Origin: Sulfurimonas sp. | GTDB taxonomy: Bacteria > Campylobacterota > Campylobacteria > Campylobacterales > Sulfurimonadaceae | Assembly: GCA_016735225.1 (NCBI GenBank) | Contig: JAERRX010000045.1 | Coordinates: 1 to 46,215 of the forward strand | Length of the DNA stretch: 46,215 nt | Direction: 5' to 3' | Shown: positions 3,245 to 10,892 of the stretch, piece after piece | How the letters are laid out: every line of letters starts with the position of its first letter | Numbering within the stretch: the first letter of the stretch is position 1 | Made by a program: the position numbers and the translations under genes | The notes under the pieces: model-generated | Databases searched by the model: none | Seen by the model: the letters and a program-made list of their open reading frames with translations, nothing else | What the model was told of the DNA's origin: nothing

Positions 3245-4500
3245 TACTTGACTTCAACTATATTGTATTTAGCTTGAAAGTCGGCTAGTTTTTTTCTATT
3301 TTTGAGTATGCTCTTTGTTGTTGCATCTTCAAGTGTGAAGTGAAACTCACCTAGAGCGATATCAAACTCTTGAACTAGCTTTTGCTCTACTTTGAAACTG
3401 TAAAAAGCATGAGACTTTTTCTCTAAAACCACTCTCCCCTCACTCCTGCTTACTCTAAAGTCTTTTGGTGTGTCAGTATTGTCAAAGAACATTAGTGCAT
3501 CTTTTTTAGGGTTTGTGACCATCATCCAAACTCCTGCTAAGTTATAGTAGGGAGTCTTTTTGTTTCTTGTGTACTCTTTTTTCTGTCCATTGCCATACTT
3601 GACTTTTATCATAGACTTTTTAGGACTAGCACTAAACTTGATGTTTGAGTTAGCATCTTTAAACTTTCCAACAGTCTGAAAAAGTGACCTAGTGTGCAGA
3701 CCAGCATAGATGTTTTGCTTTTGGTTGATTTTGGAGCCATGTGCTAAAACCTCACTCATTCCATCTATATTTACCTCTGTAAACTTGTCATTTTTAGCAT
3801 TAGTATTTATGGAGACTTTGAGTCTCTGCTCTTTGTTGTCTTTAGAACTTTTATATACTAAGCTTAGTGTTTCGTCTGCTATGTCATCAAAGGTTGCAAC
3901 TGTTTTCAACTCTGCTGATAGTGCTATAAACTCTTCTAGTTTATCAGAAGTAACCCTACTTAGCATAAACTCCATCTCTTTTTTAGACCCAGTACCTAGC
4001 TCAAACCCAACAAGCACTCTCTCTTTGAAGTAAAATGTACCAAAGGTCTTCATCTTAAGTCCATCTTTATTGCTACCAATAGACTCTTTTACTCTTACTT
4101 CATAGCTTGCTACATCTGTTTTTCCAGAAAATATTTTAGAGTTATACTTTTTCATTTTCTTTGTAACTTCACAAAAATAGTAGTTTCCATCTTCAAAAAC
4201 CTGTAGAGATGTTCCATCGTTTAACTTACCTAAAAGACTATATGCAAGAAGTGTCTCAAAACTAAAGATCGATCTTAGGCTATGGTGTTTTAGATCACCA
4301 AAAAGTTTCAACTTCTTACCATCTTGTGAAAATACAAACTCCTCATCATCAAACTCCATAAGAACTTTTTTCTTATCTTTTGTAGTAAACTCATACTTGT
4401 TGTCCTCACTAAATCCTGCTTCTCTGAGAGAAAAGTAGCTGGCATTTAAACTCAAAACACTCATCACAAATACTACAGAAACTAAAAACATTTTTTTCAT
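3244..4500 (-). CDS. Hypothetical exported protein
   Basis: 418 aa ORF; signal peptide MKKMFLVSVVFVMSVLSLNAS; overlaps the downstream start (3244). Confidence 0.65.
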   Translation of the reverse strand: MKKMFLVSVVFVMSVLSLNASYFSLREAGFSEDNKYEFTTKDKKKVLMEFDDEEFVFSQDGKKLKLFGDLKHHSLRSIFSFETLLAYSLLGKLNDGTSLQVFEDGNYYFCEVTKKMKKYNSKIFSGKTDVASYEVRVKESIGSNKDGLKMKTFGTFYFKERVLVGFELGTGSKKEMEFMLSRVTSDKLEEFIALSAELKTVATFDDIADETLSLVYKSSKDNKEQRLKVSINTNAKNDKFTEVNIDGMSEVLAHGSKINQKQNIYAGLHTRSLFQTVGKFKDANSNIKFSASPKKSMIKVKYGNGQKKEYTRNKKTPYYNLAGVWMMVTNPKKDALMFFDNTDTPKDFRVSRSEGRVVLEKKSHAFYSFKVEQKLVQEFDIALGEFHFTLEDATTKSILKNRKKLADFQAKYNIVEVK

Positions 4501-4604
4501 AGATCACCCTTTTTTTCATTTTTCATATTTTATCATATTTTCAATCTTAATCTTCTTAGAGACCCATTAAGGCATGCAAATGAGAGAAGAGCAAAGTATC
4601 AAAG

Positions 4605-5012
4605 TTATTGTCTGCTACCTCTAACACAACGAACATAGTACTTATCGGACTTATCGTAGCCGTTGGTATGGCCACTGTAGAAGTACACGATCCAAGCACT
4701 CGAGCTACCGGATACAATTGCCGAACTTGACCAGTAGAAGCTAGAGGCTATATTTTGAAAACCTTTTTTAATAGCTGGCTTATACCTACTTATATCGACT
4801 ATGGACTGTAGCTCTTTTATATTTGGAACTCTCCAGTCACTTTTAGCATCTAGTGTTAGTTTTTTACAGTAACTCTTTGCACCACTCCACTCCTTTTTTA
4901 CAGTTTTAGCATCCACATCGTCTTGCCAAACAAGACCTGTCTTAGTATCTACAAATATCTCTAAACTCCAAAGGCTACTAAGCCCTATCATCATCAAAAG
5001 GATTATTCTCAT
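4605..5012 (-). CDS. DGR target protein 1: secreted DUF1566/Lcl_C domain protein carrying VR1
   Basis: 135 aa; signal peptide MRIILLMMIGLSSLWS; GLVWQDD..., AKSYCKKLTL..SDWRVPNIKELQS DUF1566 signatures; C-terminal 47 codons are VR1, matching the TR with A-specific changes. Confidence 0.93.
   Translation of the reverse strand: MRIILLMMIGLSSLWSLEIFVDTKTGLVWQDDVDAKTVKKEWSGAKSYCKKLTLDAKSDWRVPNIKELQSIVDISRYKPAIKKGFQNIASSFYWSSSAIVSGSSSAWIVYFYSGHTNGYDKSDKYYVRCVRGSRQ
4611..4751 (-). repeat. DGR variable repeat VR1 (141 bp)
   Basis: Ungapped alignment to TR 6096-6236: 15 mismatches, 14 at TR adenines on the coding strand, plus one silent T->G (TCT->TCG). Confidence 0.95.
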
Positions 5013-6093
5013 TTATCACTCCTACTTTTTTACACAAATTGTAGCTATTTGCATGGCTAATATGCCCTACAAATGAAGCTTGAACAGATAAAAACTGCTT
5101 TATCTCTACAAGACTCATTTCTCCTTTTTGCTTTTCATAGCTATCTAAATAGCGAGCTTTTTTATGCTTATAGTTTTTTATAACTCTTCTTCTAACTAAC
5201 ACATAGTGTGGTCTTATGATATATCCCAAAAAATCCAAACCATCATGAACCGACCTAAGTATTGTTTTATCTCTGAGCTTTAGCTTTAGGTATTGCTCTA
5301 AATAGAGTTCTATTTCACTCTTGATCTCAACAAGTCTATCTTTAGAGTTATCAAAAATTACAAAATCATCTACATATCTTATATATCTCTTGCACTTTAA
5401 AACTCTCTTGCAAAAATTGTCAAAATCATTCATATATACATTTGCAAAAAACTGACTTGTAAGGTTTCCAATAGGTAAGCCCTTGTTTTTAGGAACTTTA
5501 AAAAGTGTTTTATGCGAAGGGATGAGTTCAAAACCCTCTTTTGAGCCTTTTATATAGACATTTTTAGTAATATCGTAAAAAATAATTTTATGAACCAACC
5601 ATAACATTTCATTTAACTCTATTGCAGATTTATCTACCTTGTGATAATTTTGAACTATTGTAGAGTTTAGCATATTAAAAAGTATATTTTTATCTATGGA
5701 GTAGAAGAAATTTCTTATATCCAATTGCAGATAATAGTTGGTCGCTTTTGAAAATTTCAAGGCTCTTTTTTGAGCATTGTGTATGCCCTTACCTACTCTA
5801 CAACTGTAACTGTCGTGGATGAACTTAGGCTCATATATTTTTTCTAAAACAGGAGTTACTAGATGATGCACAACTCTATCTGAAAAATCAGCCGCAAAAA
5901 CCTCTCTAAGTTTTGGAGAAGTTGTTAAAAAACATACACACCTTGCAGGCATATATGTTCTCTTGTTTAACTTTTCCTCTAAGTTACAAATATTCTCAAC
6001 AAGATTCATCTCAAATTTAATTGCATTATGGGTTTTACCTTTACCCCTCTTGCATCTTAAATAAGCACTATGAATCTCCTTAAATGTAAACAT
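4978..6093 (-). CDS. DGR reverse transcriptase
   Basis: 371 aa; RT motifs: YYLQLDIRNFFYSID, GLPIGNLTSQFFANVYMNDFD (DGR-type), RYIRYVDDFVIF catalytic YVDD, DGLDFLGYIIRP; adjacent TR, VRs and avd. Confidence 0.97.
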   Translation of the reverse strand: MFTFKEIHSAYLRCKRGKGKTHNAIKFEMNLVENICNLEEKLNKRTYMPARCVCFLTTSPKLREVFAADFSDRVVHHLVTPVLEKIYEPKFIHDSYSCRVGKGIHNAQKRALKFSKATNYYLQLDIRNFFYSIDKNILFNMLNSTIVQNYHKVDKSAIELNEMLWLVHKIIFYDITKNVYIKGSKEGFELIPSHKTLFKVPKNKGLPIGNLTSQFFANVYMNDFDNFCKRVLKCKRYIRYVDDFVIFDNSKDRLVEIKSEIELYLEQYLKLKLRDKTILRSVHDGLDFLGYIIRPHYVLVRRRVIKNYKHKKARYLDSYEKQKGEMSLVEIKQFLSVQASFVGHISHANSYNLCKKVGVINENNPFDDDRA

Positions 6094-6095
6094 TA

Positions 6096-6236
6096 TCTGC
6101 TACCTCTAACACAACGAACATAGTACTTATTTGACTTATTGTTGTTGTTGGTATTGCCACTGTTGAAGTTCACGATCCAAGCATTCGAGCTATCGGATAC
6201 ATTTGCAGAACTTGACCAGTAGTTGCTAGAGGCTAT
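6096..6236 (-). repeat. DGR template repeat TR (141 bp)
   Basis: Near-identical to VR1 and VR2; translated TR is Asn-rich (NYWSSSANVSDSSNAWIVNFNSGNTNNNNKSNKYYVRCVRGSR), with 11 AAY codons where the VRs carry diverse residues. Confidence 0.95.
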
Positions 6237-6352
6237 TTGGTTCTCTATTTTAAAGCTTCTGATGAAAATGTCAAAAGAAGCTTGCATAAAGCTATATACC
6301 ATTTTCAGGTAAGAAAACCGCACAATATTTTGTTGCACTCTTGCAAAATTTA

Positions 6353-6706
6353 TCATTTTACAACTCTGGCATAGTGGTTTAGCCAAGCTTGGGACTGTTT
6401 GCATATAGCAACAATTAGCTTAGAACTCTCTTCAAACTGTTTGAAACTTTTAAAAGCCTTTAGCTCGTAAGACAACTGAATCAGGATCTTTGTCTCTTCA
6501 CACTTATCTCTTAAAAGTACTAAACCCTCTCTTTTGTCTTCATGCATGTTCACTCGATGTATCATAAAGAGGATCTCCTTTGAGTACTCTCTTAAATCAC
6601 CTCCTATAGTATATTTATTGTACTTTTCAAAACTCTTAACAATAGTCTCAATATATACACAAAACTCCATACTACTCCTGTATATCGGTAAGTTTTCATA
6701 TCTCAT
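6353..6706 (-). CDS. avd: DGR accessory variability determinant (Avd-like four-helix-bundle protein)
   Basis: 117 aa helical protein (MRYENLPIYRSSMEFCVYIETIVKSFEKYNKYTIGGDLREYSKEILFMIHRVN...KQSQAWLNHYARVVK); position between target and TR/RT is typical of Avd. Confidence 0.88.
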   Translation of the reverse strand: MRYENLPIYRSSMEFCVYIETIVKSFEKYNKYTIGGDLREYSKEILFMIHRVNMHEDKREGLVLLRDKCEETKILIQLSYELKAFKSFKQFEESSKLIVAICKQSQAWLNHYARVVK

Positions 6707-6727
6707 TTTTAAACCAAAGTATCAAAG

Positions 6728-7892
6728 TTATTGTCTGCTACCTCTAACACAACGAACATAGTACTTACCCGACTTACTGTAGTTGCTGGTATAGCCACTG
6801 TTGAAGTTCACGATCCAAGCACTCGAGCTATCGGATACATCCGCAGAACTTGACCAGTAGTAGCTAGAGGCTATATTTTTAATTCCATCTATTACTGCTG
6901 GACTATGCTTATTGTAGTCAAGTAAACTTAAGAGTTCGTAATAGTTGGGAAGTCTCCAGTCACTTTTTCCTCCAAGAGATAGATCTCTACAGTACCCCTT
7001 AGCATCTTCCCAGTTAAGCTTTGTACTCTTTGCCTTTTCATTATCTTGCCAGATGAGACCATCTGTGGCTTTAAGCATTCCTAGTTTTCTATATGGTTTT
7101 CTTTTCTTTTTTTTTATATCTTCAACAAGTTGTTTATTTTTAACATTTCCAGTCCAGACTATCAGTGTATCTTTTATCTTACTCTCTAGCTTAAAGTCAG
7201 TATCATACCCTGACATATCACCCATATTTGTTTGGTATGTTTTTTTGTTGAGCTTTACACTTAGGCTGTTTATATATAGACCTCCATCACTATACTCGAA
7301 GACCACTACTGGTTTTAAGCTTTTTAGCTTTGAGCTTTCATCTAGTCTCTGTGCTTCTTTGGGTGCTACTTGGATCTGGATAGGGATGGTGAACTTATCT
7401 GAGATGATTTTACTTATAAAGACTCTATCATCAGCATTATAATTATCAAAATTATCTATTTTGGGTTTTCCAAGGTAGATATTTAAAGCATCTTTTAGGG
7501 TGCTTTGTAGTTTTTTGGGAAGCTCTCTTTGTGCTTTTTTTTGTTTAGTTTTGATAGTTGCTATCTTTTGCTCATAGTCTAAAGTATTTTTGCTATTTTT
7601 AGCATCTTTACTTTTCACATCTTTAGCATAAAGCTTTTCTACTCTTGCTTTCTCATCTTCTACTCGTTTTTTAAAATCTTTAGTAGGTTCATACTTCCCT
7701 TTTTTTAACTCTTTTGACCTGTAGTCAGACCTGCTTACACTTATCTCTATTGGCTTTTTAACTGAGTCTAGGCTATGTTGTGAAAGCAGTTGCTTTTTCT
7801 TAGCATTTATAAGTTTATTTATCTCTGTAGAAGAGATCGTACCTGCAATAAGTGGTAGTGAGAAAAGTAAGAATATTAGTAGTTTTTTGATG
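6728..7892 (-). CDS. DGR target protein 2: secreted two-module protein with C-terminal DUF1566/Lcl_C domain carrying VR2; apparent start is non-canonical (ATC at 7890-7892), first canonical in-frame start is GTG at 7618
   Basis: ORF track gives 6728..7618. The frame stays open upstream and encodes a signal-peptide-like N-terminus (..IKKLLIFLLFSLPLIAGTISSTEINKLINAKKKQLLSQHSLDSVKKPIEIS...) similar to the start of the paralogous protein at 14002-15384. C-terminus DGLIWQDNEK...SDWRLPNYYELLSLLDYNKHSPAVIDGIKNIASSYYWSSS is DUF1566. Confidence 0.85.
6734..6874 (-). repeat. DGR variable repeat VR2 (141 bp)
   Basis: Ungapped alignment to TR: 11 mismatches, all at TR adenines on the coding strand. Confidence 0.95.
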
Positions 7893-8061
7893 GTATCACC
7901 TTAGTTTGTTTTTATTTTTGAGTTTAGCTAAATATAAGTAAAATATTGATTAAAGCTAAAGATTTTAGATAAAATAACTATAACTGAACTTTCGCACCAA
8001 AACTCAATAGTCCCCTACTCTAGTTCCATTAAAATGTTTTATCAACTCTACTTTAACTTGC

Positions 8062-9123
8062 TTACAATCTTTGAACCTCTTCCAAATTCATTTCGTCTTC
8101 AACAATATCAGGAATACTTTTTCTAAATGGATCATCTCTAACTTCTCCATCTAAACTAATAAGTTCATTAGCTTTTAATGATTGGATAATAAAAGGGGAG
8201 TGAGTTGTTATTATAAATTGTATTTTTGGAAATGTATTTTTCAAATCATCTATAACAGTTTTTTGCCATTTCGGATGCAAATGCATATCTATTTCATCTA
8301 TTAGCACAACACCTTGTGCTTTTTTAACTGCATCCTCTCCTAGATGAGGATTTAAGATAATAGCACGATATGCGATATCAGCTGTTAATCTTACAATATT
8401 TTTGTATCCAGCACTTAGCATTGCAAAAGATGTCCAGCTTCCATCTTCTAATTGACCTAGCATATCTTGAGCTTTCCAGCTAAAATGTATTTTTTGCCAA
8501 CTCATTACCATTGTAGTGATTGATTTGGTAAAAGCATTATATAAGGCTTTGTTTTTACCAAATTTTAAAACAGAATCCTCATAATCTCTAAACCAAGTAA
8601 GAAATTGTTTTCTTACAACTTCTGGTTCTAAACAAGCATGATAACCATCAAATCTAGAACCTTCATCTTTATGTATTCTTGTCTCTTTATCATTTACTCT
8701 ATCTGTACCATAATAAGCGATTAAAGGTAGTTGCACATCCTCTCCTGCTCTTACTTTTTGTTCAAGTTCTTTTGCTTTATTTATTAAGTCTTTTGCATGT
8801 TTATAGCTTGTTGCTCCACCCTTTGGCATATTTGTATCTCTATACCAAGTGTATTCATTATTGTCAAGGGAGTTAGTTATATCTATCCTGAAAGGTAATT
8901 GGATTTCAATATTTTCTGTTGATAAAATTTTTCTTCTTTTTTGATGATTGTAAAGTGGCTTTGAATCCATACTACTAATACCTAGAAAAAATGTACCTAA
9001 TGAATATGACAATGCTTCTAAAACAGTTGTTTTTCCAGTTGCATTATTCCCAATGATGATATTCATTTGAGGATTAAATGAAAATTCTTGTTTTTCAAAT
9101 AGTTTAAAGTTAGTTATTTTCAA
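8062..9123 (-). CDS. AAA family ATPase (RecF/OLD-like, AAA_21/AAA_23)
   Basis: 353 aa; Walker A GNNATGKTT, signature-like LSAGYKN, Walker B GVVLIDEIDMHLHP, ITTHSPFIIQSL. Confidence 0.88.
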   Translation of the reverse strand: MKITNFKLFEKQEFSFNPQMNIIIGNNATGKTTVLEALSYSLGTFFLGISSMDSKPLYNHQKRRKILSTENIEIQLPFRIDITNSLDNNEYTWYRDTNMPKGGATSYKHAKDLINKAKELEQKVRAGEDVQLPLIAYYGTDRVNDKETRIHKDEGSRFDGYHACLEPEVVRKQFLTWFRDYEDSVLKFGKNKALYNAFTKSITTMVMSWQKIHFSWKAQDMLGQLEDGSWTSFAMLSAGYKNIVRLTADIAYRAIILNPHLGEDAVKKAQGVVLIDEIDMHLHPKWQKTVIDDLKNTFPKIQFIITTHSPFIIQSLKANELISLDGEVRDDPFRKSIPDIVEDEMNLEEVQRL

Positions 9124-9140
9124 ATTTTAATATTCATTTT

Positions 9141-10892
9141 TTACCTAAAATCTCTAACACATCTTATGTATAGTTCTTTATTTAATGAGTACCATGTTCC
9201 GCTACTTGGAAAATTAAAACTTACTCCTATCATACTATTTGTATTTAAATCATTTTTTGTTGATGTCCAGAAGTTTTGCCATGAGATCTTAGAGCTGTTG
9301 GATAGCTCTTTTTTTATGAAGCTACTGTTAGATAAACTCTGCTTATGCCTGTAAGATTTTTTCTCTTTAATGGTTAAAATCTCTTTCTCAGTAGGAACTC
9401 TCCATCCAGACACAAAACCTACTTTTAAGCTTGAGCAGTAAGACCTTGCACTATCATAGGTGAGTTTTTTCAGTCCATCGTTATTTTGCCACATCAGTTT
9501 AGATTTTGGATCTATATAGGTATCTATGACATACTTAGCTATGAAGTTTTGGTACTCAAACCCATTCTCTTTGTAAAGCTTATAAACACTTCTGTCTATT
9601 TTAAAGTCGATACTATTGTCACTAATTTTCATAGACCTATGCAGGGTCGCTTCATACTTTAGATCTGTATAGAAATTTTGAGTTTTAGGATTTAACACTC
9701 TATGTTTTTTAGCTGTTTCATAAATGAGTATCTGCTTAGTATGCGAAGAGAGTTTATCCATCTTATGGTAGTGAGTGTCAAGTAGCATATACCGTGCATC
9801 TTTTGGAAGGTCATAGCTCATTAGCTCAAACACATACTTAAAGGAAAAAACCTTTACACCAAGCTCTATGTCCCAGATTTCATTGATATTTTTCTTTTTA
9901 TTATAGACTATTGTCTCTTTTTTGTTGGCAAGCAGTTCTTTAAACTTTACAAGACTGGGAGTATCTTTGAGTGCATATCTAGGAATATAGTTGATACGCT
10001 TTTGCTGTGCTCCTATGCATTTGAAAGTAAGCTTATCAGCAGATGAAGACAACTGAGCTTTCATATCAAAAATCTTACAGTACTCTTTGGCTTGTAGTGC
10101 TGGTATCTCAACTTCATTTTTTGAATTGTAGCCAATCAAACTATTTGGAGTAAGCTTAAAGTATGAAGATAAAAAGTACTGATCAACTGTTATGTTTTTT
10201 GCATAGACCTTGATAAACTGCTTTTTATTGTTATATGATATCTGTTTAATTGTGTCTTTTGAATACTCCTGAACTACTGTCTCTTTAGCCTCTGGTGTTA
10301 TCTCTTTGTTTGTGTAGGGTTTCATGGGATTTAAGATGATAAATCTCATCAAATTTACACAATTGCTATATGAGCTTATATCAAAATCATCAAGAGTAAT
10401 AGTGTAGAACTCACTAAATGAGAACTTCCCTTCTTCATTAATAGTACGATAACCCTCTATGACTATGGATTTTTCCAGTACATCTCTGATCGTAAGAGAG
10501 ATATCTAGTGTATTTGTCTGAGTTAAAGCTAGAGCATCACTTAGCTTTTGAGCATCAAACTTAAAGTTTTGTGCAGCAGTATCTTTGTCACTTCCAGTCA
10601 AAAGACTTTTAGCGATAGAGATGCTTTTAAACTTTGTGTTGTAAGCACTTAAGGCACTCCTCTCATCTTTTGTAAATGCAATATTTTTATTTCTTTGCAG
10701 AAAAAGCTGTGCTTTTATCATATTGGTAAAAAAAGTTTTATGGTACTTATCGGCATTTGGATTGAGTAAAATAGGAGTGTTAAGTATGAGAGTTAAACTC
10801 TTTTTAGATGGGTATGTTGAGTATTTACTCTCACTTGAGTATATAGACACGACAGATAAGAGGCTAGCAAATAGTATAAAAAAGAGTTTCAT
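9141..10892 (-). CDS. Exported protein with C-terminal DUF1566/Lcl_C-like domain, no TR match
   Basis: 583 aa; signal peptide; C-terminal KLMWQNNDGLKKLTYDSARSYCSSLKVGFVSGWRVPTEKEI...FWTSTKND...LYIRCVRDFR. Confidence 0.78.
   Translation of the reverse strand: MKLFFILFASLLSVVSIYSSESKYSTYPSKKSLTLILNTPILLNPNADKYHKTFFTNMIKAQLFLQRNKNIAFTKDERSALSAYNTKFKSISIAKSLLTGSDKDTAAQNFKFDAQKLSDALALTQTNTLDISLTIRDVLEKSIVIEGYRTINEEGKFSFSEFYTITLDDFDISSYSNCVNLMRFIILNPMKPYTNKEITPEAKETVVQEYSKDTIKQISYNNKKQFIKVYAKNITVDQYFLSSYFKLTPNSLIGYNSKNEVEIPALQAKEYCKIFDMKAQLSSSADKLTFKCIGAQQKRINYIPRYALKDTPSLVKFKELLANKKETIVYNKKKNINEIWDIELGVKVFSFKYVFELMSYDLPKDARYMLLDTHYHKMDKLSSHTKQILIYETAKKHRVLNPKTQNFYTDLKYEATLHRSMKISDNSIDFKIDRSVYKLYKENGFEYQNFIAKYVIDTYIDPKSKLMWQNNDGLKKLTYDSARSYCSSLKVGFVSGWRVPTEKEILTIKEKKSYRHKQSLSNSSFIKKELSNSSKISWQNFWTSTKNDLNTNSMIGVSFNFPSSGTWYSLNKELYIRCVRDFR

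Follow-up and report, generated by a model that had tools for sequence, protein, structure and literature searches.

How is the template of a diversity-generating retroelement (DGR) marked out and copied when the reverse transcriptase (RT) gene begins immediately behind it? The question is raised by a 46,215-nt contig of a Sulfurimonas sp. genome (JAERRX010000045.1; this whole stretch is referred to as the window), on the minus strand of which target 2, avd, a template repeat (TR), RT and target 1 follow each other and the RT start codon directly adjoins the TR without a spacer between them. Every part named in the initial annotation was found at its place in this order, namely target 2 at 6728–7891 with VR2 at 6734–6874, avd at 6353–6706, the TR at 6096–6236, the RT gene at 4978–6093 and target 1 at 4605–5012 with VR1 at 4611–4751 (all minus strand). 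The one TR and the two VRs are exactly 141 nt each, as had been stated, and align in one ungapped register; the genome bin (1.92 Mb, 82% complete) contains no further copy. The RT gene shares its last 35 nt with the start of target 1. The contig is chromosomal, with housekeeping neighbors such as alanine racemase, GcpE, NADH dehydrogenase-type subunits and a TonB receptor. A PtuA-like ATPase is encoded at 8062–9123 (minus strand; E = 1e-113 to Septu family models); it stops about 65 residues before the model does, and no PtuB follows it immediately. A further Lcl_C protein without TR/VR similarity is encoded two genes upstream (9141–10892, minus strand). The earlier statement that all canonical DGR parts are present holds for RT, Avd, TR, VRs and targets, whereas the structured spacer that phage BPP-1 carries between its TR and RT gene is missing.

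The 371-aa RT shows the expected GLPIGNLTSQ and YVDD motifs and matches RVT_1 (E = 5.5e-17) as well as the PHROG RT family (E = 2.7e-95). Its best sequence match in the PDB is 8ub7, annotated as "Reverse transcriptase" (E = 1.6e-31), which we take to be the RT of the Bordetella DGR. In a quick tree of 54 rows with long branches at the base and no retron RT included, the window RT falls into a Campylobacterota clade (SH-aLRT 100), close to Sulfurovum and with a gammaproteobacterial clade as sister, and forms one group with BPP-1 and other RTs accompanied by TR and VRs, to which the two group II intron RTs in the tree do not belong; the phylogenetic check proposed with the initial annotation hence places the enzyme within the DGRs. 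Retron RT models stay below their cut-offs (St85 at 57 bits versus a cut-off of 235). The 117-aa avd product, described earlier as Avd-like, is indeed matched by the PHROG "Avd protein of DGR" (E = 1.3e-12), and its hits to Pfam bAvd (E = 2.6e-6) and NCBIfam Avd (E = 1.6e-5) are both below the curated cut-offs. In-frame inserts of about 60–80 residues near the region between YVDD and thumb occur in the RTs of L021 (5001–6302) and L026 (5001–6338), as compared for L006 and L021. The nearest relative of the cassette, L011 (JALUWO010000079.1), is a 3.3-kb contig with an RT 75% identical to that of the window; it is labeled Candidatus Gracilibacteria, which is probably a binning error.

Both VRs lie at the C-terminal ends of Lcl_C proteins, in agreement with the DUF1566/Lcl_C targets described in the initial annotation. 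Target 1 has 135 aa, a signal-peptide-like N-terminus and a Pfam Lcl_C match of E = 5.5e-32. Its AlphaFold2 model, computed with 38 sequences, reaches a pLDDT of 86 (48 with 12 sequences) and resembles best the C-terminal domain of Legionella Lcl (8q4e, E = 4e-5), so that a C-type-lectin fold nearest to this domain is predicted. Target 2 gives Lcl_C at E = 2.6e-29 on a 296-aa ORF. Its signal-peptide frame (IKKLLIFLLFSLPLIAG) opens at an ATC (7891–7889) behind a ribosome-site-like stretch (AAGGTGAT); ATG, GTG or TTG is not found at this N-terminus, the first canonical start being an internal GTG at 7618. The ATC may have arisen by genuine mutation, may serve as a non-standard start codon or may stem from misassembly. 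Consequently, of the claim that RT, avd and both targets are intact, the part on the RT stands, as it is full length with intact motifs, whereas the state of target 2 is doubtful.

Differences between TR and VRs are confined almost entirely to adenines, which make up 47 of the 141 TR bases. VR1 deviates at 15 positions, 14 of which are TR adenines (binomial p = 2e-6), and VR2 at 11, all of them adenines (p = 6e-6); the sole exception is a T>G change in VR1, corresponding to one of 188 non-adenine comparisons for the two VRs. Pooling 28 TR–VR pairs from 17 Campylobacterota loci, with two misregistered pairs left out, gives 444 of 467 mismatches at TR adenines and rates of 0.36 per adenine versus 0.010 per non-adenine site. 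Moreover, at non-adenine sites where the TRs of two loci differ, the VRs match their own TR in 11 of 11 cases for the window and L011 and in 15 of 15 for the window and L012. As each VR follows the TR of its own species, homing must have replaced the sequence of both VRs after the species diverged, in line with the assumed service of two targets by one TR. Both targets are, on this comparative evidence, rewritten in nature over evolutionary time.

TR and VRs might be taken for three diverged ends of paralogous domains with an adenine bias arisen by chance, as an Lcl_C C-terminus is encoded by all three copies. This is refuted by the adenine specificity (chance probabilities in the order of 1e-6 for each VR in the window, 95% over 28 independent pairs) and by the concerted evolution of the VRs with their own TR, and we give the idea practically no credence. 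Less easily dismissed, albeit unlikely, is that the cassette is a relic in which TR and VRs record past activity of an element no longer working. The ATC start of target 2 would fit such a state, as would the losses of RT in L093 and L094 and the drift at non-adenine sites in L015; the RT frame of the window, however, is of full length with its motifs intact, and the single difference among 188 non-adenine comparisons indicates that the last homing event is recent. Hence, a DGR that worked recently and may still be active appears the better reading, and the functionality assumed in the initial annotation is supported by adenine specificity and concerted evolution as far as sequence can support it. 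Taking adenine-specific differences, RT group, Avd homologue and C-terminal VRs in Lcl_C proteins together, the cassette qualifies as a DGR in all tests that could be applied.

Just past the shared 3′ end, TR and VRs diverge in most loci, with T or G following the TR and C following the VR, resembling IMH and IMH*. In addition, two or more TTTG elements are present in 20 of 28 VR 3′ flanks versus one of 16 TR flanks (5% in shuffles). The base change and the repeated TTTG behind the VR look like an IMH-type target mark. A GC-rich hairpin of the BPP-1 kind was not seen downstream of the VRs when viewing the flanks by eye.

Regarding the template RNA itself, a structured 5′ leader of about 130 nt precedes the TR (6234–6370, minus strand), which is evident from covariation, from a score of 108.7 bits with R1, the covariance model built from the aligned leaders, and from the single-sequence fold (z = -3.4). 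It starts with the conserved box GCCAGAG (6364–6370) inside the 3′ coding end of avd, a box also kept in L095 where avd is lacking. This is followed by hairpin P1 (5′ strand 6355–6363, 3′ strand 6341–6349, supported by covariation) with the avd stop codon at its loop, by GNGTGC, by a TTGTGCG core and by the 5′ strand of the long-range helix P2 (GGTTTTCT, 6312–6319). After TACC, P2 encloses hairpin P3 (AAGCTTCT, 6276–6283, pairing with AGAAGCTT, 6253–6260), which is taken from the RNAalifold consensus of 13 sequences and was not counted separately, and closes with its 3′ strand (AGAGAACC, 6239–6246) 2 nt before the TR. Seven of the eight P2 pairs show compensatory changes, and 99.3% are paired. 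In the alignment of 17 leaders, standard pairs occupy 98.1% of pair cells, compared to 70% with shuffled columns and 44–57% with slid partners, both sides have changed in 12 of 16 pairs, and the covariation score is 0.815 versus 0.24 (shuffled) and 0.08–0.18 (slid). Rfam gives no match to the leader up to E = 1 (searched at window positions 4000–8100).

R1 also recognizes sequences outside its build, each directly before a TR, in L070 (E = 2e-20), L026 (1e-9) and L067 (3e-8) as well as in the gammaproteobacterial loci L051 (4e-5), L034 (4e-4) and, weaker, L062 and L063 (0.04). In single gammaproteobacterial sequences P2 is mostly not significant alone, for which reason the E-values of R1 are relied on. 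BPP-1 and the phages L074–L078 are not matched. Among 399 genomes of the order, R1 matched 12, once per genome; ten of these matches were viewed as loci and all lie at a TR or a TR remnant, and the other two, in G089 and G258, lie at already known DGR loci. Four matches (L093–L096) were outside the RT search list, and in these the strands of P1, and those of P2 wherever a TR is left, still pair, using new combinations of bases. In L093 and L094, TR and VRs are present and the RT is deleted or damaged, and of L096 only the TR end remains. As the RT is lost in some relatives of the same genus (L093), the system can decay. The 4.4-kb contig of L095 shows target, leader, TR and target (871–2389) with an adenine-biased VR and neither RT nor avd, a minimal or orphaned DGR. 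The leader is likewise kept in L015 (4565–4840), the TR–VR differences of which are not adenine-specific, indicating either a decayed DGR or a TR replaced by a VR copy.

The five-part order of the window is common to most complete Campylobacterota loci, with TR–RT gaps of 0–26 nt in most relatives compared to 2 nt here, and the position of the targets on both sides of the avd–TR–RT core is, from the loci compared, conserved across this phylum. An exception is L017, where the TR lies ahead of avd and is still preceded by the leader. In every case, P2 ends at the start of the TR. Judging from this distribution, the leader travels with the TR and not with avd or RT. Since it stays with the TR in L017 and L095 and stops where the TR begins, it is most simply read as a 5′ domain of the template RNA. 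A palindromic MITE-like repeat (GTAGGGGGCGAT...ATCGCCCCCTAC) is inserted between TR/avd and RT in L015, L017 and L036. In L014 (1457–1810), 127 nt comprising the TR end and the RT start stand in identical copies on both sides of a run of N, a scaffolding artifact.

What the leader might do is suggested by the missing counterpart on the other side of the TR. A spacer-like element hidden in the 5′ coding region of RT was considered and rejected, as the first 25 codons show no synonymous constraint (ratio 1.08). With no structured 3′ spacer left, the leader is proposed as the dock for RT and Avd and P2 as the stop for RT. The DGR transcript would accordingly consist of the TR preceded by the folded leader (box, P1, core and P2 enclosing P3); RT and Avd would make cDNA from the TR with misincorporation opposite its adenines, most likely with the leader as candidate docking domain and P2 as candidate 5′ stop of cDNA synthesis at the TR end; and the cDNA would then replace VR1 or VR2, marked at the 3′ end by the changed base (T/G in TR, C in VR) and the downstream TTTG. 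The explanation as a whole, a chromosomal DGR with two lectin-fold targets, one TR and a folded leader within the template RNA, is regarded as highly probable.

A competing reading would make the leader a cis-regulatory element of the avd–TR–RT messenger, effecting translational coupling or attenuation of RT and playing no part in retrohoming. P1, which spans the avd stop codon and has ATGA in its loop, is suggestive of this, and so is an open frame running through the TR (6093–6359, minus strand), which begins with an ATG sharing bases with the avd stop (ATGA), ends with a stop codon sharing bases with the RT start (TAATG) and thereby joins avd to RT in most relatives. This frame, however, is closed in L016, L020 and L093, which keep the RNA fold nevertheless; the leader remains with the TR where avd and RT are absent (L095) or where the TR lies ahead of avd (L017); and the invariable end of P2 at the TR start also speaks against a purely regulatory element, which we therefore consider improbable. 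A conserved protein encoded by the TR frame was likewise rejected, as the leader peptides lack conservation and not every relative keeps the frame open; the conservation is better explained by the RNA fold. In most, not all, relatives the TR frame is in register with the VR frame, also in the RT-less L095. Apart from the leader, an 18-bp hairpin was found in the 3′ coding end of RT (5071–5120, minus strand), about 60 nt before the start of target 1 and in 20 Campylobacterota loci. Synonymous codon identity in this region is 1.5–1.6 times the expected value, and 96.2% of the hairpin is paired compared to 30–50% with slid partners, half of the pairs being invariant; it may serve target 1 in RNA processing or in translation.

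Knowledge of template choice in DGRs, and of the points at which copying begins and ends, comes essentially from a single phage with the folded RNA behind the template. The layout seen here, in which the folded RNA precedes the template, is a natural comparison and raises the question of how cDNA is primed without the spacer. In addition, the leader model finds DGR template RNAs even where the RT is lost, and the cassette offers an A+T-rich bacterial two-target system with a single template for two surface lectins. In the literature searched, the coverage of which is incomplete so that a prior description is possible, no earlier account of a 5′ leader was found.

Compared to the BPP-1 DGR (mtd–avd–TR–brt), the window shares the order target–avd–TR–RT, Avd, adenine mutagenesis, a C-terminal VR in a lectin-fold target and the RT group. 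In BPP-1, however, no leader exists, avd and TR are 0 nt apart, and a structured spacer (Sp) of 144 nt lies 3′ of the TR before brt, whereas in the window the structured element is located between avd and TR, the TR abuts RT and a second target follows RT. According to PMC12875486, Sp is folded, brings in bRT-Avd and contains the adenine used for priming. The leader would most likely take over, at the 5′ end, part of the role that Sp has at the 3′ end. One TR with two targets is known from PMC6642488 and not new; this source gives several VRs for 28.6% of DGRs and includes systems with one TR, several VRs and DUF1566/Lcl_C targets. The window differs from the multi-VR systems described there in that its targets flank the avd–TR–RT core, an arrangement kept across Campylobacterota, a phylum absent from the searched text of that source. 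Hence, the DGR is of an ordinary, conserved two-target kind, a new member with a template RNA architecture that is a new variant.

Gammaproteobacterial DGRs (L034 from Rhodanobacter, L051 from Leucothrix and the viral contigs L062 and L063) belong to the sister RT clade and likewise possess an R1-matching leader before the TR; in L034 and L062, unlike in the window, both VRs are upstream of RT. Burkholderia phage Magia, Shewanella phage QDWS and Pseudomonas phage phPA-G show a 157–162-nt leader and a TR 9–13 nt from RT. Their leader has a similar fold with P1 and a closing helix, is unrelated to R1 in sequence and is represented by few sequences; together with L040 and L043, compensatory changes are seen in 21 of 53 pairs (five sequences, with the structure derived from the same alignment). 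The 5′-leader layout may thus be widespread. Retrons (msr–msd–RT) resemble the window, in layout only, by a structured RNA 5′ of the copied stretch and an RT gene just downstream, whereas the window RT belongs to the DGR group. The TR ends (CCTCTAACA...TGTTAGAGG) are complementary in most relatives, a pairing which fails in L017, L019, L020, L022, L023 and L066. Tentatively, and with more doubt than conviction, two architectures of DGR template RNA might be distinguished, one with a 3′ spacer as in BPP-1 and one with a 5′ leader that recruits RT and Avd and bounds the cDNA, priming in the latter proceeding from a retron-like internal site or from paired TR ends instead of a 3′ spacer.
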